Of a stretch of DNA of 64,000 nucleotides, positions 28,893 to 45,552 are shown piece by piece. Each line of letters opens with the position of its first letter. Positions within the stretch are counted from its first letter, which is position 1. Below the pieces are notes generated by a model. It had not been told where the DNA came from, ran no database searches, and worked only from the letters and a program-made list of their open reading frames with translations. Position numbers and translations under genes: made by a program. Where the stretch lies: the NCBI RefSeq assembly GCF_005924265.1, contig NZ_VCLB01000009.1:124001-188000 (forward strand), given 5' to 3'. Source of the stretch: Martelella lutilitoris. GTDB lineage: Bacteria > Pseudomonadota > Alphaproteobacteria > Rhizobiales > Rhizobiaceae.

Positions 28893-28907
28893 AAAGACGT
28901 AGAAAGA

Positions 28908-28942
28908 AGGAGGGGCGGAGCGCGCAACGCTCCGCCCCTTCT
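28908..28942. terminator. Terminator-like hairpin between aldo/keto reductase gene and valS
   Basis: An 11-bp GC-rich stem pairs GGGGCGGAGCG (28912-28922) with CGCTCCGCCCC (28928-28938) around a 5-nt loop, with further A-T pairs outside. It lies between two convergent genes, so it can serve both. T-tracts are short. Confidence 0.65.
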
Positions 28943-28967
28943 CGTCATTTCATCGACCGAAGCCTGA

Positions 28968-31880
28968 TCACCCGGCTTCACTTACCCGCGTCAGGGCCAC
29001 GGCGAGCTGTTCGCGTTGCGTCTTCAGTTCGGCAAAACGTTCGCGTTCGGTCTCGACCACTTCCGGATCAGCATTGGCGACGAATTTCTCGTTGTCGAGT
29101 TTCTTCGCCGAGCGTTCGATATCCTTGTCGACCTTGCCGATCGCCTTTTCCAGACGCGCGGTTTCGGCAGCGACATCAATCAGGTTGCCGAGCGGAACGC
29201 AAGCCGTTGCTTCGCCGATAATCACCTGGGCCGCGCCCTTCGGCGTCGTCTTTTCGAAGTCGAGCGAATCGACGCGCGCCAGACGCTCGATCGCGGGGAA
29301 ATGCCGGGCGCTGCGCTCGCGCGTGGTTGAGTTGGCCCCGACGAAGATCAGCGGCGCCTTGGCCGAAGGCGGTACGTTCATTTCGGCGCGCGCAGAGCGG
29401 ATGCCGGAAACGAGATCGACCAGCCAGTTGATCTCGTCAGCGGCCTGATCATCGCGATGGAGCGGCACATGCCAGTCGGCGTGGCAGAGCAGGCCTTCGC
29501 CGCCGATCTGGGCCCAGAGCTCTTCGGTCATGAACGGCATGAACGGATGCAGGAGCTTGTAGGTTTCGGCCAGCACATAAGCGACGCAGGCCTGCGCCTC
29601 CGCCTTGGCGGCCTCGTCCTCGCCCATGAAAACAGGCTTCAGCAGTTCCAGATACCAGTCGCAGAGCTCATGCCAGACGAAGTGGTAGAGCGCGCCCGCC
29701 GCCTCGTTGAAGCGATAGGTTTCAATCGCCCGCGTCACCTCCTCGGCCGTCTTCGAAAGCTCGGTCAGGATCCAGCGGTTGATCGTCTGCGTCGCCTTTT
29801 CCGGACGGAAGGCGGCGTCCAGCTTCATCCCGTTCATTTCGGCAAAGCGGGTGGCGTTCCACAGCTTGGTGCCGAAATTGCGGTAGCCGGCGATGCGGCT
29901 CGTATCGAGCTTCACGTCGCGCCCCTGGGCGGCCATGATCGCCAGCGTGAAGCGCAGCGCATCCGCGCCATATTCGTCGATCAGGTCGAGCGGGTTGATG
30001 ACATTGCCCTTCGACTTCGACATCTTCTGCCCGTTCTTGTCGCGCACCAGGGCGTGGACATAGACGGTGTGGAACGGCTCGACCGGGTTGCCGTGCTCAT
30101 CCTTCATGAAATGCAGCGCATCCATCATCATGCGCGCAACCCAGAAGAAGATGATGTCGAAACCGGTGACGAGAACGCTGGTCGGATAGTAGCGCGCCAG
30201 TTCATCCGTCTTTTCCGGCCAGCCGAGCGTGGAGAAGGGCCAGAGACCGGAGGAGAACCAGGTGTCGAGAACGTCCTCGTCGCGGGTCAGGATATTGCCG
30301 GGCTCGTAATTCTCGAGCTGTTCCTCGACCCAGGCCTTCCACGGGCCCTCATGCGAGATGTAGTGCTGGATCGCGGCCTCGAGCGCTTCTTCCTCGGTCT
30401 TCTCGACGAAGACAGAACCATCCGGGCCGTACCAGGCGGGGATCTGGTGGCCCCACCAGAGCTGGCGCGAAATGCACCACGGCTCGATGTTTTCCATCCA
30501 CTCGAAATAGGTCTTTTCCCAGTTCTTCGGCACGAATTTGGTGCGGCCCTCGCGCACGGACGCGATCGCCGGCTCGGCCAATGTCTTGGCATCGGCGAAC
30601 CACTGGTCGGTCAGCATCGGCTCGATGACGACGCCGGAGCGGTCGCCGAAGGGCTGCATGATCTTCTTGTGCTCGACGAAGGGGACGTCATTGCCCTCCT
30701 CGTCCTTGATGGTGACGGCGAGACCCTCGGCATTGATGGCCTCGACGATGCGCTTGCGCGCCGCATAGCGGTCAAGCCCGCGATACTCGTCGGGCACGAG
30801 ATTGATATCGTCGACATCGGCCTCGCTCGGCAGGTCACCGGACTTCGCGATCTGCATGGCCTGGCCGGCGCAGGTCGCGTAGGGCTCGCCGTCCTCGCGC
30901 ATCGCCGCCTTCCCGTCCATCAGGCGGTAGAGCGGAATGTGGTTGCGGCGGGCAACCTGGTAGTCGTTGAAGTCATGCGCGCCGGTGATCTTGACCGCGC
31001 CGGAGCCGAAATCCGGATCCGGATATTCATCGGTGATGATCGGGATCAGGCGACGATGTTCCTTCGGTCCGACCGGAATTTCACAGAATTTTCCGACGAT
31101 GGGCGCATAGCGCTCGTCGGACGGATGAACGGCAACCGCGCCGTCGCCAAGCATCGTCTCGGGGCGCGTGGTGGCGATCGAGATGTAGTCGCGTTCCTCT
31201 TCGAGGACGACATTGCCGTCCTCGTCCTTCTCGACATAGGTGTAGGTCTCGCCATCGGCCAGCGGATATTTGAAATGCCACATATGGCCGTCGGTCTCGC
31301 GGTTCTCGACCTCGAGGTCCGAAATCGCGGTCTCGAATTCCGGGTCCCAGTTGACGAGACGCTTGCCGCGATAGATCAGGCCTTGCTTGTAGAGCGTGAC
31401 GAAGACTTCGAGAACGGCTTGCGAAAGCCCCTCATCCATGGTGAAGCGTTCGCGCGACCAGTCGCAGGAGGCGCCGAGGCGCTTCAGCTGGTTGAGGATC
31501 TGGCCGCCGGATTCATCCTTCCATTCCCAGACCTTGTCGATGAAGGCCTCGCGGCCCATTTCGCGGCGTCCGGGAAGCTGCTTTTCCATGAGCTGGCGCT
31601 CGACAACCATCTGCGTGGCGATGCCGGCATGGTCCATGCCCGGCTGCCACAGCGTATCCTTGCCGCGCATGCGCTCAAAGCGCACCAGAATATCCTGCAG
31701 CGTGTTGTTGAGGGCGTGGCCCATATGCAGCGAGCCGGTCACGTTCGGCGGCGGTATCACAATGCTGAAAGACTCCGCACCCGGCCTTGCATTGGCGCCT
31801 GCCTTGAACGCGTCGGCTTCCTGCCAGCGTTCGGCGATCTTGGGTTCGACGCTTTTCGCGTCATAGGTCTTGTCAAGCAT
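28968..31880 (-). CDS. valS: Valyl-tRNA synthetase
   Basis: Class I aminoacyl-tRNA synthetase of 970 residues, charging tRNA-Val and editing mischarged Thr. The HIGH motif appears as HMGH (52-55) after PPPNVTGSL, and the KMSKS motif is intact in GQKMSKSKGNVINPLDL. The C-terminal coiled coil that clamps tRNA is present (TARLEKAIGKVDKDIERSAKKL). Length and domain order are typical. Confidence 0.98.
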   Translation of the reverse strand: MLDKTYDAKSVEPKIAERWQEADAFKAGANARPGAESFSIVIPPPNVTGSLHMGHALNNTLQDILVRFERMRGKDTLWQPGMDHAGIATQMVVERQLMEKQLPGRREMGREAFIDKVWEWKDESGGQILNQLKRLGASCDWSRERFTMDEGLSQAVLEVFVTLYKQGLIYRGKRLVNWDPEFETAISDLEVENRETDGHMWHFKYPLADGETYTYVEKDEDGNVVLEEERDYISIATTRPETMLGDGAVAVHPSDERYAPIVGKFCEIPVGPKEHRRLIPIITDEYPDPDFGSGAVKITGAHDFNDYQVARRNHIPLYRLMDGKAAMREDGEPYATCAGQAMQIAKSGDLPSEADVDDINLVPDEYRGLDRYAARKRIVEAINAEGLAVTIKDEEGNDVPFVEHKKIMQPFGDRSGVVIEPMLTDQWFADAKTLAEPAIASVREGRTKFVPKNWEKTYFEWMENIEPWCISRQLWWGHQIPAWYGPDGSVFVEKTEEEALEAAIQHYISHEGPWKAWVEEQLENYEPGNILTRDEDVLDTWFSSGLWPFSTLGWPEKTDELARYYPTSVLVTGFDIIFFWVARMMMDALHFMKDEHGNPVEPFHTVYVHALVRDKNGQKMSKSKGNVINPLDLIDEYGADALRFTLAIMAAQGRDVKLDTSRIAGYRNFGTKLWNATRFAEMNGMKLDAAFRPEKATQTINRWILTELSKTAEEVTRAIETYRFNEAAGALYHFVWHELCDWYLELLKPVFMGEDEAAKAEAQACVAYVLAETYKLLHPFMPFMTEELWAQIGGEGLLCHADWHVPLHRDDQAADEINWLVDLVSGIRSARAEMNVPPSAKAPLIFVGANSTTRERSARHFPAIERLARVDSLDFEKTTPKGAAQVIIGEATACVPLGNLIDVAAETARLEKAIGKVDKDIERSAKKLDNEKFVANADPEVVETERERFAELKTQREQLAVALTRVSEAG

Positions 31881-32032
31881 TTCCGTGCCAATTCCTGGTT
31901 TGAAAGGATGATCGGCGCGCGCGGCCGACCGTCATTTCCGGTTTTTTGACCGCCCCCGGTTTCACCGGCCAAAGAGCCGGTCGAGAGCCAGATGGTTGTT
32001 AAGCGTTAGGCGCGAAGCCTGTCAACAACAAA

Positions 32033-32052
32033 GCCGCCCCGAAAGGGACGGC
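32033..32052 (-). terminator. Intrinsic terminator after popZ
   Basis: Read leftward, GCCGTCCC pairs with GGGGCGGC around TTTC, followed by TTTGTTGTT. It lies about 50 bp after the popZ stop and upstream of valS, so it should separate the two transcripts. Confidence 0.6.
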
Positions 32053-32099
32053 CAGGCGGCCCGAGGGGCCGGAGAAAAGGGGTGAGCGACCAAGCGCAA

Positions 32100-32843
32100 T
32101 CAGCGCCGACGCATGCGCTCGAGTTCGCGCGCCACCACGTTTTCGACGATTGCGGGCATGTGGGTCTCGAGCCAGTCGCTCAGGAGCGGCCGAAGCTCTT
32201 CGGCGACGATCTCCTCGATGCTGCGCGCGCCCTCGCGCTCAAGCGCGGAGGACAGTTCACGCAACGCCTCGGAAATGCGCATCTCCGATTCCGCGGACAA
32301 AAGCGGCGCGTCATCTTCGCTTTCGGCAGCCCCCATGGCCTCGCGGCTATCCTGCTGCTCGTTGGCGTCGAACTGGCCGCTTGCCGCGCGCACCTGTCGC
32401 GCGACCTCGCCCATCGTGCCGGGATAGACGGCCTGGAAGGGCTGCCCGGCCTCGGAAGGCGCCTCAGCGGACGCCTCTTCCCGATAGGCAGGCTCAGCCG
32501 GCGCCGCCTGGGCCTCTTCGCTGCGATAGACCTGCTGCTCGGCCATCGGCGGTTCCTGGCGCACCGGTTCGGACTGTTCGGGGACAGCCGGCTCGTCAGC
32601 GGCATGGTGGCGCGACATGATCACCGGCTCGCTCGGGCGCTCCTCGTCACGCTGATACCAGTTTTCCTCGCCGTGTCCGGTCGACCGGCGCGCCTCGTCG
32701 CTGCGGTTCTCCGCGCTCTCGCGCGGCTGCGACGAGCGGTAGCCCGGCGAACGCCCGGCGTCCTCACCGCTGTCGATGATCCGCCGGATGGAGGCCAGGA
32801 TCTCTTCCATCGTCGGCTCTTGCTGCAACTTCGGCTGCGCCAT
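32100..32843 (-). CDS. popZ: Polar organizing protein PopZ (DUF2497)
   Basis: PopZ family protein of 247 residues, which forms a cell-pole microdomain anchoring chromosome centromeres and cell-cycle factors. Three expected parts are visible: the N-terminal helix EPTMEEILASIRRIIDS (residues 9-25), a long acidic Pro/Glu/Ala-rich disordered linker (about 30-165) and the C-terminal oligomerisation helices ELRPLLSDWLETHMPAIVEN and VVARELERMRRR. In Agrobacterium PopZ sits at the growth pole; polar growth here is an inference from Rhizobiales biology. It is next to valS, as in related genomes. Confidence 0.92.
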   Translation of the reverse strand: MAQPKLQQEPTMEEILASIRRIIDSGEDAGRSPGYRSSQPRESAENRSDEARRSTGHGEENWYQRDEERPSEPVIMSRHHAADEPAVPEQSEPVRQEPPMAEQQVYRSEEAQAAPAEPAYREEASAEAPSEAGQPFQAVYPGTMGEVARQVRAASGQFDANEQQDSREAMGAAESEDDAPLLSAESEMRISEALRELSSALEREGARSIEEIVAEELRPLLSDWLETHMPAIVENVVARELERMRRR

Positions 32844-32924
32844 GACAAACCTTTCTGCGCGCTTAGGCGAATTTCTCGTCGACCCGAATCATAGTGAAGG
32901 ATAATCCGGTTCCAACAGGCATCA

Positions 32925-32949
32925 CCCTGAAAACATCATGTTTTCAGGG
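32925..32949. repeat. 11-bp inverted repeat between popZ and the methyltransferase gene
   Basis: CCCTGAAAACA (32925-32935) and TGTTTTCAGGG (32939-32949) form a perfect stem with a 3-nt loop, 82 bp upstream of popZ and 45 bp after the preceding stop. No T-run follows on the minus strand, so it may be a dispersed palindrome, an operator or an mRNA stem rather than a terminator. Confidence 0.55.
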
Positions 32950-32993
32950 ATGTACACAGGTTTTTGAGGAAGGAACCTGCCGTGCCGCCGAGG

Positions 32994-33665
32994 TCAGAAT
33001 TCGAAGGCCTTCTCGCGGGCGAAGCCCGGCAGCGGCTTCACGGCGGCGTTGAAGGACAGGAACTCGGGAAAGACGTCGCCGTCGCGGCGATAGATTTTGG
33101 CGCGCGCCGCGTTGCCGACACCCTCGACGCAGACCAGGCGACCGCCGTCGCGCAACTGCTCGAGCAGCGCGTCCGGGATATATTCGACCGCGCCGTTGAC
33201 GAAGATCACGTCATAGGGCGCTTCCGAAGGATAGCCCGCCGTCAGTTCGCCGACGACCACGGCGGCATTGTCGTAGCCGAGCTCGAGAAAATTGTCGCTC
33301 GCCGACTGCACCAGTTCCTCGTCATTGTCGATGCCGACGACCGATTGCGCCAACAGCGAAAGCACGGCGGCGGCATAGCCCTCGCCCGTGCCGACCACGA
33401 GGACGACATCCTTCTTGGAGACTTCCACCAGCTGGATCAGCTTTGCGAGCGGCGACGGCTCCATCATGTAGCGCGCGGGGCTATCGGCGCTGGCCGGCTT
33501 CACAAGGATATCCTCGTCGATATAGGCAAGCGGCTTCAGCTTGGCCGGAAGGAATGCTTCACGCGGGACCGACAGGAACGCAGAGATTACCGGATGCGCC
33601 GTGACATCGGTGGTGCGGATCTGGCACTCCACCATCTTTTCACGCGCCGTTTCGAAATTCATCAT
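32994..33665 (-). CDS. PCMT-like protein-L-isoaspartate O-methyltransferase family protein
   Basis: A 223-residue class I methyltransferase of the PCMT group. The N-terminus NFETAREKMVECQIRTTDVTAH and the AdoMet loop VVLVVGTGEGYAAAVLSLLA are visible, followed by the acidic strand end VVGIDNDEEL. Rhizobial members of this subgroup differ from canonical PCMT and may not repair isoaspartate. Three close ATGs compete; 33665 is preferred from the GAGG nine bases upstream, with 33662 and 33671 as alternatives. Confidence 0.83.
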   Translation of the reverse strand: MMNFETAREKMVECQIRTTDVTAHPVISAFLSVPREAFLPAKLKPLAYIDEDILVKPASADSPARYMMEPSPLAKLIQLVEVSKKDVVLVVGTGEGYAAAVLSLLAQSVVGIDNDEELVQSASDNFLELGYDNAAVVVGELTAGYPSEAPYDVIFVNGAVEYIPDALLEQLRDGGRLVCVEGVGNAARAKIYRRDGDVFPEFLSFNAAVKPLPGFAREKAFEF

Positions 33666-33817
33666 CGCCATCAACCTCACAGTGCATTTTCGCGAGCCAT
33701 AAAAAGCCACGTGAGACTGTCACGCCGCCCGAGCATTTTTCTTAAATCGGCCATCGCCCCGTGGCAAGGCGTGAGTGCAATGCTTGCCCAATTTGCGGCA
33801 ATCCGCAACAGATGCGA

Positions 33818-33846
33818 AAAAGGGCGCTTGGTCCGCGCCCTTTTCC
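33818..33846 (-). terminator. Terminator of the secreted repeat-protein gene
   Basis: AAAAGGGCGC and GCGCCCTTTT form a stem with a 7-nt loop; read leftward it ends in TTTTTC, 25 bp after the stop codon of the gene starting at 34614. A standard intrinsic terminator. Confidence 0.75.
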
Positions 33847-33870
33847 TGCTGGTTTGATTTGGGATCAGTA

Positions 33871-34614
33871 TCAGCGACGATATTCGTGCATCAGGCGGCA
33901 GAGGCGCTGCAGCCCCGGCTCGAAATTGTCCGGCGTCCGCATCACGCTCTCGCACTGGCGACGCACCACCTGCTGTTCTTCACCCGAGAGCTGGTCGAAA
34001 GCCGTCACCAGGCGCTGGTCGTCCGCGTCGGACGGCATGTCGCCGCCGCCGGAGCCGCCCCCGGCCGTGCCGCTGCCGCCGGAACCGCCCATGCCGCCGG
34101 AACCGTCGCTGCCGCCGCCACTACTTCCGCCGCCAACCGGGCCGCCCGGCGCGCCGCCGTCACCCGAACCGCCGATCCCGACATCGACATCCGCGCCGAC
34201 ACCGGAGCCGCCGCCGACATTGGCGTCAGCCGAGGCGTTGACGCCGGAGGAGCCGCCAACGCTGGCGTCCACGTCCGCGCCAATGCCCTGCCCGCCACCG
34301 ACATCGGCATCCGCGCTGGCGTTCACGCCGCTATCGCCGCCGACACTCGCGTCAACATCCGCATCAACGGCCTGACCACCACCAACATCGGCACCAACAT
34401 CGGCGTTGACCCCGTTGTCACCGCCGACACTTGCGCCGACATCCGCGCCGACGCCGCCCTCCGGGTTGAGATCGGCATCGACGCTCGCATTAATGCCGTT
34501 TTCGCCGCCAATGTTCACGTCAAGCGCGCTTGCCGTTCTTGCGCCGGAAAGGGCCACGGCACCCGCGAAAACCACACCGGCCAGAAGTTTCGATCTGTTA
34601 CTGAATGCAAACAT
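33871..34614 (-). CDS. Secreted protein with eight 14-residue Gly/Asp/Val repeats
   Basis: A 247-residue protein I cannot assign to a named family. A signal peptide covers about 1-30 (KLLAGVVFAGAVALSGARTASA). Residues 41-152 hold eight consecutive 14-residue units of the form G-V-x-A-D-V-D-A-S-V-G-G-x-x, for example GVGADVGASVGGDN and AVDADVDASVGGDS. A glycine/serine linker follows (about 153-195). The C-terminal ~50 residues form a separate helical domain with two cysteines (RRQCESVM, LQRLCRLM). The regular hydrophobic-polar alternation suggests a stacked beta structure, and the acidic repeats could bind calcium; both are inferences. GAGGAGG lies upstream of the ATG, and a terminator follows. 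Confidence 0.8.
   Translation of the reverse strand: MFAFSNRSKLLAGVVFAGAVALSGARTASALDVNIGGENGINASVDADLNPEGGVGADVGASVGGDNGVNADVGADVGGGQAVDADVDASVGGDSGVNASADADVGGGQGIGADVDASVGGSSGVNASADANVGGGSGVGADVDVGIGGSGDGGAPGGPVGGGSSGGGSDGSGGMGGSGGSGTAGGGSGGGDMPSDADDQRLVTAFDQLSGEEQQVVRRQCESVMRTPDNFEPGLQRLCRLMHEYRR
33989..34490. repeat. 42-bp-period tandem repeat region inside the secreted protein gene
   Basis: The DNA encoding the eight 14-residue units repeats with a 42-bp period (approximate borders, including part of the Gly/Ser linker). Units alternate between ADVDASVGG and ASADADVGG types, giving an 84-bp higher-order repeat in the middle. Such a tract can change length by slipped pairing or recombination without shifting frame. 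Confidence 0.7.
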
Positions 34615-34948
34615 GTTTTCCTCCTCGAGGACCGTGCGATATTCAGGCGCACCCCGAACAGACGGCTCCCATTCACAAGTCTCAGAGAGTTGTTGTTGCG
34701 GCTCCTCTCGGCCGCGTGACAGATCAACGGAGGTTCAACGAAAAAAGTTCCGGTAAAGGCTTGTATCGACAATATATCCCTGATTTTGAAATCCTATTTC
34801 TCAAGCAGGAAACCCGGCGAATGCGCCGGATATTTTTCGACAGAACAATGACAGCGCAAACAATTCTTGCACGAAACAAGACTGCGACGCCGGGCGTGTC
34901 GGCCAGGCGTCGTTCTGCGCTCGGGCACCACCTCGCGATCCGCCGTCT
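34615..34948. other. 334-bp intergenic region without a supported gene
   Basis: This gap separates the start of the secreted repeat protein from the stop of the MscS-type gene. It is AT-richer than its surroundings, especially 34740-34810, and must hold the leftward promoter of the repeat protein. No confident -35/-10 pair or terminator was recognised. Short open frames across it look like chance. Confidence 0.5.
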
Positions 34949-37474
34949 TCACCGTCTGCCAAAGCGGAAGAGCCAGAAGCGGCCGCGCTGTCGCTTCTCT
35001 TCGGGACTGGCGGGCTTGTACTGCTCATCCTCGGGCGGAGCGCCTTCGGGCGGGTAGTCGAGCGTGTCCTGCAGGCCGGAAACCTCGTCCGCCGTGAGGT
35101 TGGGAAAGGGAAGCCTTCCCTCGCCGCGCCAGCCCGCCACAGCCTGTTCGGCGGCCTCGCCCTTTTCAGCGTCAATGCCGCGATCGCGCGCGAGATAGAG
35201 CGTGCTGGCCGGATAGGCGAAATCCGTTCCGGATTTCTCGATGAGATCCATCATCCGCAGGATCACATCTTCCTGTATGGCGAGGAACTCGGAATAGTCG
35301 ACGGTGCGGATATAGGCGAAGATTTCGTATTCGACCCGGTTTTCGGTAATTCCGAGAAGACGCACGCGGGCCGGATCCGGAAGCACTTTCGGATGGGCGA
35401 TCAACATGCGCCGGATTTCCGTCAGAAGGTAGCGCAGCTGGTCCAGGCTCGTCTCCGGCCTCAGGGCAAAGCTGCGACGCATCAACACGCTGTCGCGACG
35501 GGTGAAATTCTCGATGCTGTCGGCGATGAAATCGGAATTCGGGATGGTCAGCAACGTGCGATCCAGCGTGCGGATGACAGTCGCCCTGAGGCCGATATGC
35601 TCGATCGTCCCGATTCTACCGTCGAAGCGGCCCAGATCATTGACGTCGACGGGCCGGTCAACGAACAGGATAAAGGCCGAGATCACGTTTTCCAGCGTCG
35701 AACGCGCCGCAAAGGCGATCGCGATGCCGGAGATGCCGAGGCCGGCAATCGCCGCGCCATAGGGAATGGAGAGCGCGTCGGCAAACAGCAGGATATTGGC
35801 GCAGACCACCAGAACCTTGGCAACGCCGACCAGAAGCGACGCCAGGATCGCCCCGCGTTGGTTGATCAGACCGGCGCGATCGATGGCGTGGTGAAGCCGG
35901 TCGACCAGCCAGAATTCGATCGGGATCGCGCCCGCGATCATCATCAGCACCGCCAGCGACTTGATCGCGCCGCCGAATTCGGACGGCAGGCCGAGAATGG
36001 CGAAGCCGAGATAATTGATGACGCCGAAGGCGAGCAGACGGAAACCCCAGATCGCGAAGGCGCGGCTGCTTGCCGCCCTTCCGCTCGCCGGGCCAAGCCG
36101 TCCGGCAAGCGAGAGGACGATGCCGACGAGAAGCGCAGCGGCGACCGCGATGACGAAAATGGCGACAAGGCCCGCCCATTGCCAGGCCTCCAGCGGGCCG
36201 ACCGGCTGCAATGCCGCCGGCACCGCCCCGGCAACGATCGCGCGGATCTTGAAATAGGGCGCTTTCGAATGGGTGTCATAGGGAAGAACCCTGATGGCCT
36301 GCGGCAGGTTCTCCGTGGCAGCATAAAGCGCGCGGACCGTGCGCACCGTCTCAGGCGTGAACTGCCACTGCACGCCGTCTTCGGTCTCGGTCGGGGCGAG
36401 CACGATATCGCCGGCGGGATGGGTGAAATAAACGAAGGGCTCCAGAGACCCGGGATCATTGGGGATTTCCTGGAAGACGACCTCGCCGATCCTGGCGATC
36501 ACCTCGTTCAGATATTCGGCGACAAGCACGGATTGGCGGTCGCGCACCACCGTCGGCATTTCGGAAAGGTCGAGCGCGGCAATCGCGGTGTCCTGCATGG
36601 CAGGCCCGGCGCGCATGGCGTCGATGAAGCTCTCCATGGCCGCGCGCGGCGTGGAGCCATCAAACCGGCCACCTGCCTTGTAGCCGCCGCCCGGCAGGCC
36701 CGCCGCGATCTCGGAAAACAGGTTTTTGACGAAAGCGGCCGGCGGCGCGACCATGAACCAGTCCTCGCCGACGCGGCGGAACTGCAATGGCAGCGTCCGT
36801 CCGTCATAGCGCGTCAGCACCAGTTCGGCTTCATCGCCTTCCGGGGCCTTGGTCTCGAAAACGTCGGGATCGACGGTGAACTGGTCGAGCAGAAGCACGA
36901 GCGGCGCCAGTTCGCGAGCGTGGTTCTCGCGGCCGCCCTCCGGAAAGATCAGCATGGACAAAAGGTCGTCCTGATATTCCAGCCGTCCGCTTTCCACTGC
37001 CTCGGCGGCAATCAGGAAGGTGCGCAGCGTTTCGGACGGCGACGACTGAAAGGCGCGCAAAGCCTGGTCGTGCCCACTGCTGATCCGTGCGCCCGTCCAC
37101 CATTGCTTGTTGCCGAGCCGCCCGACAAAGCTCCGGCCATCCTCCGACAGGATGAATTCGAACGAGCCGCTGCCCTTCGGCGTCGTCCACGTCCCGACAA
37201 GCCGCCGGCCCTCGGCCTCGCCTTCCAGCCTGCCGTTATAGGCCGGGTAGCGCCCGGTCACATGCGTGCCGTCCTGCTGCATGTAGACCCGCGCGCCGCC
37301 GTCGAACCAGCGCGAATCCCAGGCGCCGGTCCATGAGGCGGGGGCGGCCATCGCCAGCGCGGTAAGCCCGATGAAAAGAAGGAACAGGATCGAGAGGACG
37401 ACGGCAAGACAGGCGCGCACAGGGACCGGCCGGTCCCCGCTCTTCTTCGCCAGTTCGTTCTCCATCAGCACCAA
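34949..37474 (-). CDS. Large MscS-family mechanosensitive channel with N-terminal extracytoplasmic domain
   Basis: An 841-residue inner-membrane channel of the MscS superfamily. One N-terminal hydrophobic segment (about 20-45) leads into a beta-rich domain that reads like a small lipocalin-type barrel (WTGAWDSRWFDGGARVYMQQ, later GTWTTPKGSGSFEFIL). A long periplasmic part then precedes several membrane segments (about 430-600). The pore helix and beta domain are recognisable in IAGLGISGIAIAFAARSTLE and LGRFDGRIGTIEHIGLRATV. The TTG at 37474 has GGGG eight bases upstream; an ATG at 37465 is the alternative. It follows the HXXEE gene by 4 bp. Confidence 0.85.
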   Translation of the reverse strand: MVLMENELAKKSGDRPVPVRACLAVVLSILFLLFIGLTALAMAAPASWTGAWDSRWFDGGARVYMQQDGTHVTGRYPAYNGRLEGEAEGRRLVGTWTTPKGSGSFEFILSEDGRSFVGRLGNKQWWTGARISSGHDQALRAFQSSPSETLRTFLIAAEAVESGRLEYQDDLLSMLIFPEGGRENHARELAPLVLLLDQFTVDPDVFETKAPEGDEAELVLTRYDGRTLPLQFRRVGEDWFMVAPPAAFVKNLFSEIAAGLPGGGYKAGGRFDGSTPRAAMESFIDAMRAGPAMQDTAIAALDLSEMPTVVRDRQSVLVAEYLNEVIARIGEVVFQEIPNDPGSLEPFVYFTHPAGDIVLAPTETEDGVQWQFTPETVRTVRALYAATENLPQAIRVLPYDTHSKAPYFKIRAIVAGAVPAALQPVGPLEAWQWAGLVAIFVIAVAAALLVGIVLSLAGRLGPASGRAASSRAFAIWGFRLLAFGVINYLGFAILGLPSEFGGAIKSLAVLMMIAGAIPIEFWLVDRLHHAIDRAGLINQRGAILASLLVGVAKVLVVCANILLFADALSIPYGAAIAGLGISGIAIAFAARSTLENVISAFILFVDRPVDVNDLGRFDGRIGTIEHIGLRATVIRTLDRTLLTIPNSDFIADSIENFTRRDSVLMRRSFALRPETSLDQLRYLLTEIRRMLIAHPKVLPDPARVRLLGITENRVEYEIFAYIRTVDYSEFLAIQEDVILRMMDLIEKSGTDFAYPASTLYLARDRGIDAEKGEAAEQAVAGWRGEGRLPFPNLTADEVSGLQDTLDYPPEGAPPEDEQYKPASPEEKRQRGRFWLFRFGRR

Positions 37475-37478
37475 GATT

Positions 37479-38267
37479 TCAGCCCCCCAACGGTTTCATG
37501 AGCGCTCCGGGCGGACCGTTGCGCAGAACAAGGCAGGGCACGGCCGACCAGATCACAAGAAGGGCAAAATAGCCCATTTCCGGTATGACATGGAAATAGC
37601 CTGCCGCAAGCAGGCCGGCAAACATGATGATATGGGCAATCACGCCCCAGCCGATGCTGGCAACAACTTCCCCTCGGCTGGCAATGCCCGCCTTCAAGAA
37701 ACGGTGATAGATGGCGAGGGAAAGCGGAAAGAACAGGACGATTGCCGTCAACAGGCCCGGATTGTAGCCGCCCCGGATGATCGCCATGCCGACATGGCTG
37801 ACGGCGTTCACCAGAACGATCGACACCATGCACAGCGCCGGAAACAGGTGATGGCGCGCTCTGAGGATCGCCAGCGCCGCCACAAGCCAGACCAAAGAGG
37901 TGTTGATGACGAACACCCCGGCATCGGTGAGCGGCGGCGACGTGCCGGCAGGCGCCCGCATCAGGTCGAGCAGCACCATGTTGACATAGGGCTTGAAGGC
38001 GTAGACCTGGCCGTACAGATCGACCCAGTGTTCCTCGAACTGGTGGATGATATAGGCGATCCACAGGATCAGCGCATAGAGACCGACGTCGTTGTCTGCG
38101 AGCCGCAGAGGCCTGTCGGAAAAGGCGAAGGCCAAGAAGAGCAGGAACGGCGCCATGAAAGTGCCGAGCTTCATCCAGCCAGTGAGCAGAAATTCATGCT
38201 GGCCGAGCGGCAGCCACAGCATGGCAAAGGCCAGAACCAGAAAGATGAACGCCCGATTTTCCGACAT
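37479..38267 (-). CDS. HXXEE-domain integral membrane protein
   Basis: A 262-residue protein with about seven hydrophobic segments. The motif HQFEEHWVDLYG (near residue 75) fits the H-x-x-E-E pattern that defines this domain of unknown function; a second His-containing segment is NAVSHVGMAIIRGGYNPG. The conserved His and Glu inside or next to membrane helices suggest metal binding or a membrane enzyme, but no reaction is known. It lies directly before the MscS-type gene and is probably co-transcribed with it. Confidence 0.78.
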   Translation of the reverse strand: MSENRAFIFLVLAFAMLWLPLGQHEFLLTGWMKLGTFMAPFLLFLAFAFSDRPLRLADNDVGLYALILWIAYIIHQFEEHWVDLYGQVYAFKPYVNMVLLDLMRAPAGTSPPLTDAGVFVINTSLVWLVAALAILRARHHLFPALCMVSIVLVNAVSHVGMAIIRGGYNPGLLTAIVLFFPLSLAIYHRFLKAGIASRGEVVASIGWGVIAHIIMFAGLLAAGYFHVIPEMGYFALLVIWSAVPCLVLRNGPPGALMKPLGG

Positions 38268-38351
38268 GCAATGCCTCCGCCGCGATTCCCCGCGCCTCCC
38301 GAGGTTAGCGATGCCTGAAATTAAGGCAAGTTGCGCCGCGGCGGAGACCGA

Positions 38352-41300
38352 TCAGAACCGGTATCCGAACCTGATCGAGCCGGTATGCGACTGGTAGTCG
38401 TCGGCAAAGGCCCCGTCATACTGGAATTTCAGCTCCATGCCCTGCCGCTTGGCAAGGTCCAGCCCGAGCGTGACATGCCCGACCGTATCCGCAATCGGCG
38501 TGAAGGTGGAGAAACTGTCCATCGACGACAACCCGGCAAAGCGCGACGTCGTTTCCCAGCTATCGGCCGTCAGGAACGAGACCCCGAGATCGCCGTAAAG
38601 CCGCGCCGGCCAGTCCTCCATGAACGGGATCCGCGCACCGAACTCGATCCCCGGGGTAACGCCGAAGGCCGTATCCGAATTGCCGTCGACCATCAGGTTC
38701 ATCGCCCCCGCGCCGCTCTCCGTATAGCTGAACTGGTGCATGTTGATGACGTCGAAATCGACCTTGGGACGCATGTAATATTCATCGCCGAAGGCAAATT
38801 CGTAAGAAGCGCGGGCGCGGGCGAAGAGCATTGCCGAATCCGGCTCGCCGCGGGCGGTGGCCGAAAGCGTGTCGAGATTGATGTAGCGCTTGGAATCGCC
38901 CCAGTTATAGCCGGCGCCGCCGACAAAGCCGAAGAGCCAGGGGCCGGCCTCCTTCTTCAGCGCCACCGCGCCGGTGAAGGATTGCTGTTCCATCTTTTCA
39001 GAACCGCTCTTGTTGCGGAACCAGCTGTTCTCGTAGGTCAGGCCAGAGCCGAGGAACCAGCCATCGGCCAGCGCCGCCTGCCCGCCGAACTGCAAGCCGC
39101 CGACCGATTGGGTATAGCCTGAGGAATCGCCGTGCTGGCCTTGCGTGGTCTCGCCGCCGAGCGCGCGGCTCCACACGCACGAGCCCTCGTCCATCATCAC
39201 GCCCGTCGTCGCAAAGGCCGGGCAAGAGAGCACGCTGTTGGCAGCCGCGATCGCGGCGGAGGGTGAATCGGCCAACGGCGCCGCCGCCGTCTGCGAGGCC
39301 AGTTCCAGCAGCATGTCGTCGAATGTGTCGGGATCGGCCTGGTGGAACGCGCCGAAGGCCGCGCCGAGCGAGATTTCGTCCTCGGCGAATTTCACCTCCG
39401 TGGCGCTGCCATCGGCGATCCTGTCCCAGGCCTGCTGCATCGCCCGCGAGACGCCGCCTGCATTTCTGCCGAGCGAAACGCCGTTATCGGCGAAATGCGC
39501 ATCGGCAACGGAAAACCCCTGCCAGCCCTCGGCCGATTTCGTCACATCGGTAAAATCGAAGACCAGGGAGGAGAGCGCCGAAAGCTCGGCCATATCCATA
39601 CCCTCGGCCTTCAGGAACTCGGCGCGCGTGTTTGGCAGGAGCGCGTTGGCATTGACGTCAACGCCCCAGGTGCCGGCGAAGTCGCCTTCGATCAGAAGCG
39701 TGTCGGCCGTGCCGTTTTCCATGTCGACGTCAAGCCCGGTCAGAAGACCGCCCTTGCTCGAATTCTCGGTGCGCCAGTCGACCCGTTTGCTGCGGTCGAA
39801 ATAGCTGAAGGGCGAGAATGTTGTCGAAAGACCGAGATCGGCAACGTCATAGGCGCTGCCCGCATCCTTGGTGCCGACGCCGAGAAGGTCTCCGGTCACG
39901 CGCGTCCGGACCGTGCTCCAAGTCCCGCCCGGATTGATGCTGCCGGCGTTGAGAATGCTGCCGGCATCGGCGATATGGCCGGTCACGAGCGTACCCGTGC
40001 CCTGATTGATGAAGAGGCTGGTACCGGCACGCGCCGCCGTCCGCACCGCGCCATCGGCGGCCGAGGAAGCGGTTGCGAACGTGTGGTGGACAATATTCCC
40101 GGTCACCGTGCCGTGATTGTCATGCGTGATAGCGGTTCGGCTCGCGGCGGAGGAATAGATTGCGCCGCCGCTGTATTCACCATTGTCGGCCGCCGCAGTC
40201 GAGCCGGAGAGGACACCGCCGCTGCCGATCGTCAACGACATCGCCGGACCGGTCGCCTGCGCCCATCCCCCCCAGGCTGTCGGATCGGAAACCTTGACGC
40301 TGCCGTTGATCGTGACCTCGAGATTGCCGTTCTGCGTATTGCCGGAAATGTTCGAGCCCTGCTGATTGTTGAAATTGGCGAGCGTGCCGGCATAGGTCTT
40401 GCCGTTCTGCAGGAAGATGCCGCCGGAGCCGCCGATCGCCTGCGCGACAACGCCATGGGCATATTCCCCGCTGGTGCTGACGCTGCCATCGACAGTCACC
40501 GAGACATAGCCCGTTTGATCGGCGATCCCTGAGCTGTTGTCGTAGTAATACTGGCTGTTGGTAAAAGTGCCGCCGTAGGCGCGGTAGAAAGCATTCAGCT
40601 TTTGTGCGAGATCGGCCGAAACGCCGCCGCCGCCGGAAACGGTTTGCGCAAGAATGCCGAAGGCGCCATCGCCCGAGGTGACGATCGAGGCGTTTTCCTC
40701 GACGTCGATATCCACGTTGTGGGCGCTGGACGACGCCTGCTTCTGGACGAAGCCGGACTGGTCGAAATTGCTGGCCGCGGCCGTCAGGAAACCGCCGCCG
40801 CCGCTGATCGACTGCCCAGCAATGCCGATGGAGCGTTTGCCCGAAGTCGTGATCGAGCCATAGTGATTGATAGTGACGTCTTCTCCATGCGTATCGCCAC
40901 TGTCGCTGCCGCCGCCGAAGGTGGAACTGATGACGCCGGAAATGCTCTCGTCATTGACGGCGTTGTAGGTGCCGAGCGCGACGCCGGCAAAACCGCCGCC
41001 GCCGCCGATCGACTGGCCGAGGATGCCGTTGGCATTGTCGCCGGAGGTGGTGATCTTTGTGCCCGCGATCGTATCAACCAAAACATTGCCGGCGTTTCTC
41101 GTCCCGTCGGACTGGCCCTGCGCCCCGAACTTGATCGAGACCTTGTCCATGGCATAGCCGGTCTGGATCGCATGCCCGCCGCCGCCGCCGAGCGACTGGG
41201 CAATCACGCCGTTGGCGGCAAAGCCCTGGGTGTAGATATTCGCGGCATAGACCGTAACCTGACCACCGTCGCCTGCCGCGCCGTTCGTCGCTCCGAAGGA

Positions 41301-44300
41301 GATCGTCGAAAGATCAAGGTCGGCTTCCGGTCCGGAAACCGTGACGCTGTTGGCGCTGGACGACGTCGAAACCGCGCCGCCGCCGCCGCCGATCGACTGC
41401 GCCAGAATGCCATGGGAGAACGAGCCATAGGTCGTCGTTGTGCCCTTCGTCTGCGACGTACCCTTCTTGTCGACACCGACATAGACATTGCCGCCGTAGC
41501 CGCCATCGCCGCCGGAGGCGCCGGTATTCGCCGAAAGCGTCACGCCGACATCGAAGGAGGGATGCGCCTTGACCCATTCCGAGAACTTGACCTTGGTCTC
41601 CTTCTCGAACTCGAAGGCGTGGCCGATGGAGCTTGTGCCGGAACCGCCCTGCCCGCCGCCGCCGCCGATCGACTGGGCAACCAGGCCGGGAGAAGAATCG
41701 CCCTTGGTCAGGACCGTGCCGTTGTTCCAGGCATAAACGGTCCCGCCATCGCCGCCCTCGCCGCCGGTCGCGCCGATGCCGACTTCAAGCTTGTTGTCGG
41801 CGTCGACATCCCCGGTTCCGCCGCCGCCCTTGCCGCCGCCGCCGCCAATCGACTGGACGAACAAGCCGGCCGAATTTGCGCCATAGGTCCTGACCGCCCC
41901 GCCCGCTGCCACGCCACCATAGGCCGATCCGCCGTCGCTGCCGCTGCCGGCATTGCCACCGATGGAGAGCGAAAGATTGAAGGTGGAACTGCCGAAATAA
42001 TCGATGCCGTCGGTCTCGCCGGTTCCGCCCTGGCCGCCGCCGCCGCCGATCGATTGCACCAGCATGCCGTCGGCAAAATCGCCGCTGGTGGTGATGGTCC
42101 CGTAATTATGGGCGAAGGCCTTGCCGCCGGATCCCGCTGCGCCGCCATTGCCGCCGAGCGAAAAGGTCAGCGATGCGGTAACGGATTCGCCCTCGAGTTT
42201 CTTCTGAAGTTCGGCCTCTCCGTCCGTCAGCTTGGCGAAAGCGCTCTGCAGCGTCGCGGTTCCCGCCGCTGCCGTCGAATCGCCGCCCTGTCCGCCGCCG
42301 CCGCCGATCGACTGAACATGCAGGCCGAGCGAACCGTCGCCGGCAGTCGTGACGGCGCTCTTGTCCTTCAGGACCGCCGTCGCGGAACCGCCATCGCCCG
42401 CGACGCCGCCGTCGCCGCCATGCGAGACGGACACGGAAAGCGCGAAACTGTCGCCCTTCTCGTCAAAGGGCAGGCCGAAGGCGAGCGCATTGGCGCTGGA
42501 CGCGCCGCCCGAGCCGCCGCCGCCGCCGATCGACTGGACCACAATACCGGTCGCATCATAGCCGGCTGTCGAGACCGCGCCGTAATGATTGATTTCGGCG
42601 GTTCCCCCGTCGCCGCCGCCGGAACCGTAGCCGCCGGTGGCGATCGCGATGTCGAAGGTCTTCCCAAGCGAGACGGATTTCGCCGCGCCGCCCGAGCCGC
42701 CGCCGCCGCCGATCGACTGGGCAAGTATGCCGAGGCCGTTGACGCCGCTGGTCTTGACCGTCGAGCCGGCTTGCGTCGAGAGGTTGACCGTACCGCCATA
42801 GCCGCCATAGCCGCCATTGCCGCCGATCGCATCGGAGAAGCCGACCCCCCAGGCCGTCGCCTTGCCGCCGGCGCCCCCGCCCCCGCCGATCGACTGCGCG
42901 ACAATGCCGGCGGCATAATCGCCGGAGACCGTGATGTCGGCGCCGGAGGTGATCGTAACCTCGTTGCCATCGCCGCCATTGCCGCCATCGCCGCCAACGG
43001 CAACAAAAAGCCCGCTCTTGTTGCGGCCCGTACCGCCGCCGCCGCCGATCGACTGGGCGACGATGCCGTGCGCATCCGCGCCATAGGTTGTCAGCGCGCC
43101 GTAATTCTGGACCGAAACCGTTCCGCCGTCAGAACCATCGCCGCCGGATTTGCCGCTCCCGCCGATGCCGCCGATCGCGCCCGAGCCGGTATTGTCGCCG
43201 CCGCCGCCGCCAACCGATTGCGCCAGAATGGCGATGCCGCCGCCGAGCGGAACATCGCCCGAACTCTGCGTGCCGGTCTTGCCCGCCGCATATCCGCCAT
43301 GGGTGGTGACCGCCGCCTTGTTGGTCACCGTGACGCCTGCCGCATAGGCGCCGCTCGACGCGCCGCCGACCCGTTGCGAAGCGGAATTGGTGACCGCCGA
43401 ATAATAGCTGTAGGACTGCGTGGCGATCTTGCCGCTCGAGGTCAGAAGCCCGCCGCCGCCGCCGATCGACATTGCGACGATGCCGTGGGAATCGACGCCG
43501 TAGACCTCGATCTCGCCATCATTCTTGACAGTGACTTCTCCGCTCGTATTGGAGGCGATATTGGCATCGCCCCACTGGAAACCGCCATTGCCATCCCAGA
43601 CATAGACGCCGCCGCCCGCCCCGGACGAGATCGCCGCAATCCCGTGGGAGTGATCGCCCTGGGTCGTGATTTCAAAGTCGCTCTTGACGTAAACGCTTCC
43701 GCCAGTGCCGCCCTTGCCGTTCTGCGTCGAAGATGCCGTCGAGGCGACCTGGCCCAAACCGCCGAGCGAGGTGGCCTGAATGCCGCTCGCATGCGAACCC
43801 GCCGTGGCAATCGAACCGCCGCCGGTGAGCTCGACATAGACAGCGCCCGCCGCACCGCCTTTCTTCGAGGCGTCGTAATAGTTCAGGCTGGAGCCGCCAT
43901 AGCTGGCCGCAACGATGCCGCCCGAATCATCGCCGGACGTCTTGATCGTGGTGCCGGATGCGCCGTAGACCGTCACGGAGGCCTTGCCGCCATTGCCGCC
44001 GTCATAGCCGGAGCCCGAGCCGTTGGTGTTGACGGGCCCCTGCCCGCCATAGCTGATGGCCGAGACCGCAGCCCCGCTGTTGCGGTCGGTAAAGGTCCAG
44101 TGCTTGCCGATACTTCCGGCGGCAACCGTCGAGACCGTTCCGGAAAAGGCGCTGTCGCTGGAGCCGAGCGTCACGGTTGCGTTTCCGGCGTCGCCGCCTG
44201 TCCCGCCTTCCATTTGGTTCCATGAGATATTGTTCGGGCTGTTGCCGCCGTAGGAGGCCGCAAGAATGCCGCCGCCCGCATTGGTCGAGGCGATCGTGTT

Positions 44301-45131
44301 GACGTCGCCGGATACGGTGATGGCAGCGGTATTTCCCGCGCCGCCCGTCAGCGCCCAGGTCGCGCCGCCGCGACTGATGGCGACAATCCCGAACCCTTGC
44401 GCCGAGATATCGGCGGTGGTCCCCACCGTGACCGTGCCGGCATTGCCGCCATAGGTCGCATAGGCCGTGCCGCCGCCGCTGACGGCATAAATGCCGTGGC
44501 GGGCCGCGTTTTGAATGGTCGCATTGTTGTAGACGGCGACATTGCCGCCCGCCCCGCCGGAATATTTGTCGGCGTCCTTGACCTCGCCGCGGAAGGCGTT
44601 GCTGCCCGCGGAAACGACGCCAATCCCATCCGAGTGCCTCTTGGTATAGAAATGCGTTCCACCCGGCGCATTGAAGGAGATCATCGAGGAGACGAGGGCC
44701 TCCGCAGAAACATCGATCGTCGCGCTGTTGGTGATCGTGATGTTCAGGCCCTGCTGCGGATTGACCGGCGGCATGTCGTAATAGCCGTAATAGACATTGC
44801 TCGACTGGTACCAGGTCATGGCGCCGCCATAGGCATATTGCGGCGCAGTCACGGTCGAGGAGGAAGAGATCGTGCAGGAGAAGGTCGTGGCGCTGATCGA
44901 ATCGGAATCGTTGATATAGTTACCGGTCGAACTCGGATTGCAGACCGCCTGCGCATAAACGCGCGTGTAGCCGCGCGAGTAGAATGGCACGGGAACGCCG
45001 GCCAGCGTGCCGGCAAGCGCGGTCGAGTGAAACAGCAGCGACGAGGCGATCCAGCGTTTTCGCGCGCTCTTGCGTTCTGTTTTGTCGAACTGATGAGCAC
45101 CGGCGCGTCCGCGTTGGTCTGGTTTCATCAT
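38352..45131 (-). CDS. Giant autotransporter (type Va) with glycine-run repeats
   Basis: About 2259 residues. The N-terminus carries an extended signal peptide: a basic stretch (KTERKSARKRW), then a hydrophobic core (IASSLLFHSTALAGTLAG), with likely cleavage after VYAQA. The passenger has a Cys pair near its start and then over twenty beta-helix-like repeats. About sixteen contain the phrase (A/V/G)QSIGGGGG, usually preceded by a GD-x-(S/A)-x-GI turn. The last ~280 residues form the autotransporter beta-barrel, starting around CVWSRALGG and ending GSIRFGYRF with the terminal Phe used by BamA. The ATG at 45131 has GGGGAG seven bases upstream. Related giants act in adhesion or biofilm; the role here is inferred. 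Confidence 0.88.
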   Translation of the reverse strand: MMKPDQRGRAGAHQFDKTERKSARKRWIASSLLFHSTALAGTLAGVPVPFYSRGYTRVYAQAVCNPSSTGNYINDSDSISATTFSCTISSSSTVTAPQYAYGGAMTWYQSSNVYYGYYDMPPVNPQQGLNITITNSATIDVSAEALVSSMISFNAPGGTHFYTKRHSDGIGVVSAGSNAFRGEVKDADKYSGGAGGNVAVYNNATIQNAARHGIYAVSGGGTAYATYGGNAGTVTVGTTADISAQGFGIVAISRGGATWALTGGAGNTAAITVSGDVNTIASTNAGGGILAASYGGNSPNNISWNQMEGGTGGDAGNATVTLGSSDSAFSGTVSTVAAGSIGKHWTFTDRNSGAAVSAISYGGQGPVNTNGSGSGYDGGNGGKASVTVYGASGTTIKTSGDDSGGIVAASYGGSSLNYYDASKKGGAAGAVYVELTGGGSIATAGSHASGIQATSLGGLGQVASTASSTQNGKGGTGGSVYVKSDFEITTQGDHSHGIAAISSGAGGGVYVWDGNGGFQWGDANIASNTSGEVTVKNDGEIEVYGVDSHGIVAMSIGGGGGLLTSSGKIATQSYSYYSAVTNSASQRVGGASSGAYAAGVTVTNKAAVTTHGGYAAGKTGTQSSGDVPLGGGIAILAQSVGGGGGDNTGSGAIGGIGGSGKSGGDGSDGGTVSVQNYGALTTYGADAHGIVAQSIGGGGGTGRNKSGLFVAVGGDGGNGGDGNEVTITSGADITVSGDYAAGIVAQSIGGGGGAGGKATAWGVGFSDAIGGNGGYGGYGGTVNLSTQAGSTVKTSGVNGLGILAQSIGGGGGSGGAAKSVSLGKTFDIAIATGGYGSGGGDGGTAEINHYGAVSTAGYDATGIVVQSIGGGGGSGGASSANALAFGLPFDEKGDSFALSVSVSHGGDGGVAGDGGSATAVLKDKSAVTTAGDGSLGLHVQSIGGGGGQGGDSTAAAGTATLQSAFAKLTDGEAELQKKLEGESVTASLTFSLGGNGGAAGSGGKAFAHNYGTITTSGDFADGMLVQSIGGGGGQGGTGETDGIDYFGSSTFNLSLSIGGNAGSGSDGGSAYGGVAAGGAVRTYGANSAGLFVQSIGGGGGKGGGGTGDVDADNKLEVGIGATGGEGGDGGTVYAWNNGTVLTKGDSSPGLVAQSIGGGGGQGGSGTSSIGHAFEFEKETKVKFSEWVKAHPSFDVGVTLSANTGASGGDGGYGGNVYVGVDKKGTSQTKGTTTTYGSFSHGILAQSIGGGGGAVSTSSSANSVTVSGPEADLDLSTISFGATNGAAGDGGQVTVYAANIYTQGFAANGVIAQSLGGGGGHAIQTGYAMDKVSIKFGAQGQSDGTRNAGNVLVDTIAGTKITTSGDNANGILGQSIGGGGGFAGVALGTYNAVNDESISGVISSTFGGGSDSGDTHGEDVTINHYGSITTSGKRSIGIAGQSISGGGGFLTAAASNFDQSGFVQKQASSSAHNVDIDVEENASIVTSGDGAFGILAQTVSGGGGVSADLAQKLNAFYRAYGGTFTNSQYYYDNSSGIADQTGYVSVTVDGSVSTSGEYAHGVVAQAIGGSGGIFLQNGKTYAGTLANFNNQQGSNISGNTQNGNLEVTINGSVKVSDPTAWGGWAQATGPAMSLTIGSGGVLSGSTAAADNGEYSGGAIYSSAASRTAITHDNHGTVTGNIVHHTFATASSAADGAVRTAARAGTSLFINQGTGTLVTGHIADAGSILNAGSINPGGTWSTVRTRVTGDLLGVGTKDAGSAYDVADLGLSTTFSPFSYFDRSKRVDWRTENSSKGGLLTGLDVDMENGTADTLLIEGDFAGTWGVDVNANALLPNTRAEFLKAEGMDMAELSALSSLVFDFTDVTKSAEGWQGFSVADAHFADNGVSLGRNAGGVSRAMQQAWDRIADGSATEVKFAEDEISLGAAFGAFHQADPDTFDDMLLELASQTAAAPLADSPSAAIAAANSVLSCPAFATTGVMMDEGSCVWSRALGGETTQGQHGDSSGYTQSVGGLQFGGQAALADGWFLGSGLTYENSWFRNKSGSEKMEQQSFTGAVALKKEAGPWLFGFVGGAGYNWGDSKRYINLDTLSATARGEPDSAMLFARARASYEFAFGDEYYMRPKVDFDVINMHQFSYTESGAGAMNLMVDGNSDTAFGVTPGIEFGARIPFMEDWPARLYGDLGVSFLTADSWETTSRFAGLSSMDSFSTFTPIADTVGHVTLGLDLAKRQGMELKFQYDGAFADDYQSHTGSIRFGYRF
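40425..43475. repeat. Repeated SIGGGGG-coding tract in the autotransporter gene
   Basis: A short DNA phrase (on the + strand CCGCCGCCGCCGATCGACTG and variants) recurs about sixteen times at intervals of roughly 120-300 bp. It encodes QSIGGGGG on the minus strand. The intervals are not constant and the intervening sequence is diverged, so this is a coding repeat and not a CRISPR. Long identical GC runs make it a likely site of recombination and of assembly error. Confidence 0.8.
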
Positions 45132-45478
45132 CAATCGTCTCCCCGGCGCATTTTCTTGCATGCGGTTTCCCCCGCATTGGACGATCACTGTTGATGATTT
45201 CTAAACAATTAGACAGCCGCAAAATGCCAGAATGCGGACCTTTTCTGGCCTTTTGCCTCCCTATGGCTGCCGAAATTTCGCTTATTCTTCCAGTGGTTGT
45301 GCGACCGAACTCCGACCGCGGCCGACAGGCCTTACCGCGCCATCGCCGCAAAGCCGAACCGGAATCAGTCCGCACAGCGTGTGACAAGACCCCGCCGAGA
45401 ACGATCGGGATCGTGCGGCCAAGCCGAAAACCAGGAGACGAAGATTTCAGGAAGATCACGAGACGCCAGAAGCGGAAA
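45132..45478. other. 347-bp region upstream of the autotransporter gene, no gene seen
   Basis: It lies between tRNA-Cys and the autotransporter start and should hold the leftward autotransporter promoter. The stretch around 45190-45240 is AT-richer, but no convincing -35/-10 pair was found. Short frames here are rejected as chance. Confidence 0.45.
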
Positions 45479-45552
45479 TGGAGGCCTCGGCCGGAATCGA
45501 ACCGGCGTGCAAGGATTTGCAGTCCTCTGCGTAACCACTCCGCCACGAGGCC
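45479..45552 (-). tRNA. tRNA-Cys (anticodon GCA)
   Basis: A 74-nt cloverleaf with acceptor stem GGCCTCG/CGAGGCC, a D-arm, anticodon loop CTGCAAA (GCA) and T-arm GCCGGTTCGATTCCGGC. The 3' CCA is encoded. Read leftward it follows the small frame at 45586-45741 by 33 bp. Confidence 0.96.

Follow-up and report, generated by a model that had tools for sequence, protein, structure and literature searches.

The autotransporter gene and its surroundings

The window, by which we mean the whole stretch of 64,000 nt that was analysed, holds a very large autotransporter gene lying in one block with two smaller genes beside a tRNA gene (Table 1). The original prediction had described a very large autotransporter that takes up more than a tenth of the window, has two passenger zones and ends in a complete barrel, and on all of these points it was borne out. 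The gene covers 10.6% of the 64,000 nt and encodes 2259 aa, with the passenger N-terminal and a barrel of the classical PF03797 type C-terminal in one chain; upstream, the frame stays open to 45188, where a GTG is found. All 255 of the 255 positions of the PF03797 profile were covered (E 1.6e-38), TIGR01414 was matched with an E value of 5.2e-14 when the barrel piece was scanned separately, and the chain ends in GYRF. Within the passenger, residues 60-540 are without glycine runs (18.9% G) and residues 540-1620 carry them (25.3% G). Residues 1-61 are probably a long signal peptide, the core of which contains the motif ASSxLFx[ST]TALxG in 16 of the 16 homologs. Judged by the full barrel profile, the N-terminal passenger in the same chain and the beta-helix predicted for it, the protein is a type Va autotransporter.

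Table 1. Features in and around the autotransporter gene (coordinates in the window)
Feature	Position	Strand	Remarks
Autotransporter gene, whole	38352-45131	minus	single open frame, 2259 aa
Probable long signal peptide	44949-45131	minus	residues 1-61; basic stretch, hydrophobic core, YAQA; by eye from the sequence
Distal passenger tip	43512-44948	minus	residues 62-540; rungs without glycine runs; within the block exchanged between homologs
Glycine zone, 16 QSIGGGGG-type sites	40419-43484	minus	residues 550-1571
Well-modelled repeats	41853-43220	minus	residues 638-1093; 7jjv fit covers residues 638-882
Junction between glycine zone and barrel	39180-40418	minus	residues 1572-1984; model 2 of low confidence
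C-terminal beta-barrel	38415-39176	minus	PF03797, profile positions 1-255 of 255
tRNA-Cys	45479-45552	minus	just upstream; autotransporter on its 3' side
MscS-type channel gene	34949-37474	minus	in block with autotransporter
HXXEE-family gene	37479-38267	minus	in block with autotransporter

When the whole 2259-aa protein was scanned against Pfam and NCBIfam, nothing was found up to E 1, and PF03797 was detected only once the barrel segment had been cut out. Automatic annotation may overlook such proteins, given that the whole-protein HMM scan was empty despite a strong barrel, and annotators should be warned. The Pfam and NCBIfam scans also gave no match for 39243-40292 in the junction region.

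The block of autotransporter, MscS-type and HXXEE genes at tRNA-Cys is common to four genomes (G000, G010, G011, G002) and missing at the same site in five (G012, G006, G007, G003, G004). In G009 the tRNA-Cys and the second MscS gene are present, and the 12 kb covered there do not contain the block. Homologs lie elsewhere in other genomes, some of them near tRNA-Gln, tRNA-His or tRNA-Asn (L044, L048, L049 and L054 are near tRNA genes). We found no repeat of the tRNA-Cys 3' end in 28000-45478 (exact matches of 12-24 nt, or 18-26 nt with at most 3 mismatches) and no integrase domain in the ten flanking proteins scanned. Integrase-mediated insertion at tRNA-Cys was therefore rejected for the window's site, and no mobile element is claimed. 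A phage origin was likewise rejected, with 0 tblastn matches in 50,697 phage records and no PHROGs match for the glycine zone. Further along the minus strand, at 33871-34614, there is a gene for a small, glycine-rich protein that looks secreted; the protein has GVNADVGADVGG-type repeats and no Pfam match, and an 84-nt tandem array lies inside its gene at 34252-34455.

Glycine sites and constancy of the repeat number

The original prediction had spoken of about sixteen QSIGGGGG repeats, and 16 sites of this type were indeed located, at residues 554, 638, 693, 746, 805, 866, 940, 1026, 1093, 1153, 1245, 1312, 1373, 1440, 1496 and 1564. Ten are exact, 15 fit the pattern [QM][ST][IVLM][GS]GGGG, and the last site reads QAIGGSGG. 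In 1000 shuffles of the protein the exact motif occurred 0 times and the loose pattern at most once. A glycine period of three over the whole zone was weak, being reached by 64 of 2000 shuffles, and was nearly missing in the homolog G006a. The repeats had also been said to share long identical DNA. This we could not confirm, since the longest exact DNA repeat in the gene is 37 nt, occurring as a single pair, and the larger repeat families show 60-74% identity to their reference copy; Tandem Repeats Finder detected only short 9- and 18-nt arrays within the gene.

A match to the protein was present in 12 of the 13 genomes of the genus, its own included, and in 22 of the 61 genomes searched overall, many of the latter matching only in the barrel or only in the glycine zone. 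Codons spelling exactly QSIGGGGG (with TCN serine) occurred in 5 genomes, its own included, out of 289 sampled across the class; four of the five have at least 10 copies and one has a single copy, and the reversed control pattern was found in 0 genomes. We aligned 16 full-length proteins, of which 15 belong to the genus and one to a different family of the same order. The set excludes copies truncated at contig ends (G005, G008), a 572-aa remnant in G012, two frameshifted W31 copies and other QSIGGGGG autotransporter families, and the M. radicis and M. mediterranea records L051 and L052, which judged by length duplicate the G010 and G003 contigs, were counted once. The W31 copies (L053, L054) come from a record titled 'Marinicella' sp. 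W31 and are close to the Martelella gene, their best segments showing 74 and 90% identity; there may be an error in the title or in the assembly.

Copy-number change by recombination, which had been expected from the repeats, was contradicted between species. The glycine sites were kept in all 256 cells of the comparison (16 sites in 16 full-length homologs), with a glycine-zone identity of 50-90%. Spacing between sites was near-constant, at 60-62, 74, 60 and 55-56 residues for 4 of the 15 intervals, with variation of up to about 36 residues among homologs at the others. For 254 of the 256 repeat units, scored on the 34 residues preceding the motif, the nearest unit was the same site in another protein. 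Together these results indicate that the repeats are old and fixed.

A strain comparison was possible with a related gene for which many strains have been sequenced, a 2288-aa autotransporter on pSymB of Sinorhizobium meliloti, whose record matched the final 29% of the query at 32% identity. Matches were found in 49 Sinorhizobium records, 48 of which cover 99-100% of the 2288-aa-gene query; the 49th is 65% aligned, in three pieces. The span was 6845-6885 bp in 47 of the 48 near-complete records and 6783 bp in the remaining one (SM11). As the repeat unit of this relative is 52-107 aa, the 6845-6885 bp spread is below one unit, and the variable repeat number anticipated among strains was not seen in this related Sinorhizobium gene. 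The S. meliloti gene, at L055 2940-9806 and NC_003078.1 1081058-1087924 in the pSymB records, adjoins a histidine kinase and a LytTR-type regulator and was matched in 46 S. meliloti records.

A sister autotransporter family was observed in three genomes of the genus (L040/G005, L089/G008, L088/G007), with frames of 4706, 4683 and 2959 aa and with 48, 48 and 27 glycine sites. Spacing is identical in the two 48-site proteins, and the family has long runs of exactly 65-residue units whose neighbours are just 45-66% identical. These site numbers suggest that repeat expansion is possible, but slow.

Structure model of the stalk

Residues 61-1110 were modelled with AlphaFold2 from a 6-row alignment (the protein itself and five others), and the best of five models was used, which had a mean pLDDT of 75, the other four reaching 59-65. 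By block, pLDDT was 70-97 over residues 661-960 of the protein and 78-97 over model residues 601-820, with 60 and 41 in the two preceding blocks; the distal tip (residues 62-540) was of mixed confidence. Structure prediction had been named as a check on the passenger, and it gave, as a prediction, a beta-helix, the modelled part being solenoid throughout. The model matched Vag8 (Z 27.0, 393 aligned residues, 4.3 A), Fap2 (Z 18.6, 449 aligned, 7.5 A) and pertactin (Z 17.6, 398 aligned, 4.7 A), and a Foldseek search against BFVD gave no match at E <= 0.001. The second half (residues 1100-2259) was modelled with a mean pLDDT of 40; at this low confidence, its second-look list was dominated by beta-helix and solenoid proteins, and polyproline-II bundles were absent from it.

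In the first model, a repeat turn runs through T1, T2, T3 (GIVAQSIG), arm A, a hairpin insert and arm B before it returns to T1, both arms being stretches without secondary structure. Arm A has 9 residues (GGGGGxGGx) in 6 of the 8 repeats shown in the model and arm B has about 11 (GGxGGxGGxGG), exactly 11 in 5 of 7 repeats, and the insert between them varies from about 7 to 41 residues. The repeats at 638 and 1093 fit less well because of off-length arms, and the glycine content of arm B declines in later repeats. Five repeats superposed on 7jjv_B, a nine-helix polyproline-II antifreeze protein, with a Z score of 12.4 and 1.8 A over 125 of 126 residues; this alignment (42% identity, model residues 578-822, corresponding to residues 638-882 of the protein) came from the second-look aligner on one model. 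Foldseek ranked 7jjv second and third with weak scores (E 0.06 and 0.16, probability 0.05 and 0.16) and 2pne 44th, also weakly (E 6.5). By sequence, the glycine zone gave no match to solved chains at E 0.01.

The arms could be followed over the 16 homologs in six repeats. Of the 12 arms, 11 had the same length in all 16 homologs, and the remaining one in 15 of them. Glycine occupied 551 of 576 'GG' positions and 99 of 288 'X' positions in arm A, 96 of these 99 being at position 3, within the five-glycine run. For arm B the counts were 604 of 768 and 80 of 288, where placing the arms on the protein's own sequence by their last GG favours glycine at the arm B end. Arm A was the most conserved class of the stalk, with a majority letter of 0.90 against 0.62 for strands T1-T2 and 0.62 for the inserts (entropy 1.35 and 1.23, respectively; 7 repeats). 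Alanine was found in 10 of 96 and 14 of 96 cases at X positions 6 and 9 of arm A and in 6, 15 and 3 of 96 at X positions -8, -5 and -2 of arm B, the X positions being mainly polar or glycine and without alanine enrichment.

Exchange of the distal tip

With G006a set aside, ten Martelella homologs fall outside the window's clade, and their identity to the window's protein rose from 33-48% in the tip to 50-63% in the glycine zone and 74-89% in the barrel. G006a departs from this, its tip being 67% and its glycine zone 51% identical. When G006a was compared with G004a, the tip was 35% identical and the next four zones 81, 93, 88 and 92%. In AU tests the tip data rejected G006a and G004a as one clade (p 5e-82) and the stalk data (residues 1100-1620) rejected G006a within the window's clade (p 9e-7); the clades were picked after the identities had been seen, so that these p values are descriptive, and G004a is long-branched in the tip tree. 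At the DNA level, G006a and G004a can be aligned at the signal-peptide region and again beyond approximately residue 675 (a hand estimate, in window numbering) as far as the end; the stretch of about 1.85 kb in between gives no alignment above 120 bits. The identities, the conflicting trees and the DNA gap together indicate that the tip and the first two glycine sites were exchanged as a block. As far as these sequences tell, the visible recombination is a swapping of the distal tip between homologs, not a change in repeat number.

Proposed explanation and alternatives

From sequence and model we consider it probable that the protein is a type Va autotransporter with a stalk of fixed length, in which a beta-helix is braced by a polyglycine-II bundle, and with an exchangeable binding tip. 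It would display this very long stalk on the cell surface. In each repeat a predicted strand would be followed by arm A, the hairpin insert, arm B and two further beta-helix strands, and the arms of successive rungs would pack together as polyglycine-II helices, forming a bundle that flanks the beta-helix on one side. The bundle may stiffen and brace the stalk, in which case arm length and repeat number would not be free to change. The stalk would keep the N-terminal tip away from the cell, and the tip may bind a lineage-specific partner, such as a surface, another cell or a host; if the partner differs between lineages, the tip would be exchanged in one piece and the stalk and barrel retained. 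An adhesin-like surface protein appears the likeliest role, where we infer adhesion only from the autotransporter class and the tip exchange.

Possible, though in our view doubtful, is an ordinary beta-helix autotransporter in which the glycine runs would form flexible loops and the bundle would reflect a habit of the predictor acquired from the few solved glycine bundles. Such an explanation would fit the single good model, the weak Foldseek scores, the poorly modelled second half and the glycine zone's want of a sequence match among solved chains. It sits badly with the constant arm length and GGX phase over 16 homologs and with the 1.8 A superposition over 125 residues, and disordered loops would not need the conservation that makes arm A the most conserved part of the stalk. 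Very improbable is a size-variable adhesin whose repeat number shifts by recombination between glycine-run DNA: all 16 homologs have the same number of sites at nearly the same spacing, almost every unit clusters by site, and the related Sinorhizobium gene has one length in all but one of its near-complete records. In its favour are the exact short repeats of up to 37 nt, and the sister family with its 48, 48 and 27 sites, which points to expansion over long times.

Many autotransporters release their passenger, and here too it could be cleaved off to act as a secreted enzyme or effector. We regard this as improbable, as the modelled part is solenoid throughout and no enzyme domain was found at curated cut-off in any part of the protein with Pfam and NCBIfam. 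The enzyme-named rows are below cut-off and fall on the barrel piece; the EprS serine peptidase was matched over its barrel with 40 bits against a cut-off of 1700, and an HMG-CoA synthase model gave 13 bits. We give hardly any credence to a polyglycine face that binds ice or another crystal surface in the manner of springtail antifreeze proteins, even with a predicted bundle fold that is the same as in 7jjv. Martelella is not known to be cold-specialised. Moreover, most X positions in the arms hold polar residues or glycine, whereas the ice-binding face of the springtail proteins is described, in the accessible part of PMC10235112, as flat and alanine-rich.

Returning to the braced stalk, we lean towards regarding it as a new stalk type, a composite beam to which rung after rung contributes two polyglycine-II arms of constant length, building a continuous antifreeze-like bundle with an outer hairpin edge, in which the pattern extends to relatives of up to 4706 aa, and in which the tip is traded as a cassette. 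If this is true, the antifreeze-type glycine bundle, in print unique to springtails according to the same part of PMC10235112, would also brace bacterial surface structures. Large glycine-rich autotransporters would then become readable, with the arms as scaffold and the tip as the specificity part.

Comparison with known systems

In the open-access PMC literature we found no mention of QSIGGGGG and no combination of Martelella with an autotransporter, and titles and abstract beginnings in that literature gave no polyglycine bundle in an autotransporter; the accessible parts of PMC2275737 and PMC5895577 hold nothing on this protein type. The type Va autotransporters Vag8, pertactin and Fap2 share with the window protein a passenger that is here predicted as a beta-helix (Z 27.0, 17.6 and 18.6), whereas its glycine zone matches no solved chain by sequence at E 0.01. 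We know of no polyglycine bundle in these three proteins. We also know of no beta-helix and no autotransporter barrel in the mycobacterial PE_PGRS proteins, in which they differ from the window protein. The PE_PGRS proteins are glycine-rich surface proteins that have been modelled as polyglycine-II sandwiches (PMC7830552, in part).

The predicted bundle of GGX helices is similar to the polyproline-II bundles of the springtail antifreeze proteins (7jjv, 2pne), a fold called unique to Collembola in the available text of PMC10235112. The two antiparallel layers of helices that characterise this fold may be present here as well, going by the fit of one model to 7jjv_B. In contrast to the springtail proteins, the helices here would be arms sent out by the beta-helix of a bacterial autotransporter, and the X positions are not alanine-rich. 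The design of the predicted stalk also resembles the tail-fibre adhesin gp38 of phage S16, described in the accessible sections of PMC6851490 as a 'polyglycine sandwich' in which beta-helix turns extend into polyglycine-II helices. As described there, gp38 has ten such helices at the tip with hypervariable segments, whereas in the window protein each of many repeats would have about two arms. A gp38-like display of hypervariable loops was not supported, the inserts being no more variable than the strands. Because its X positions are not alanine-rich and its inserts not hypervariable, we class the stalk as neither the antifreeze nor the gp38 type. The chlamydial Pmp autotransporters, as portrayed in part of PMC10715098, likewise repeat a short motif in successive rungs of a predicted beta-helix, from one face of which extend loops that differ in length.
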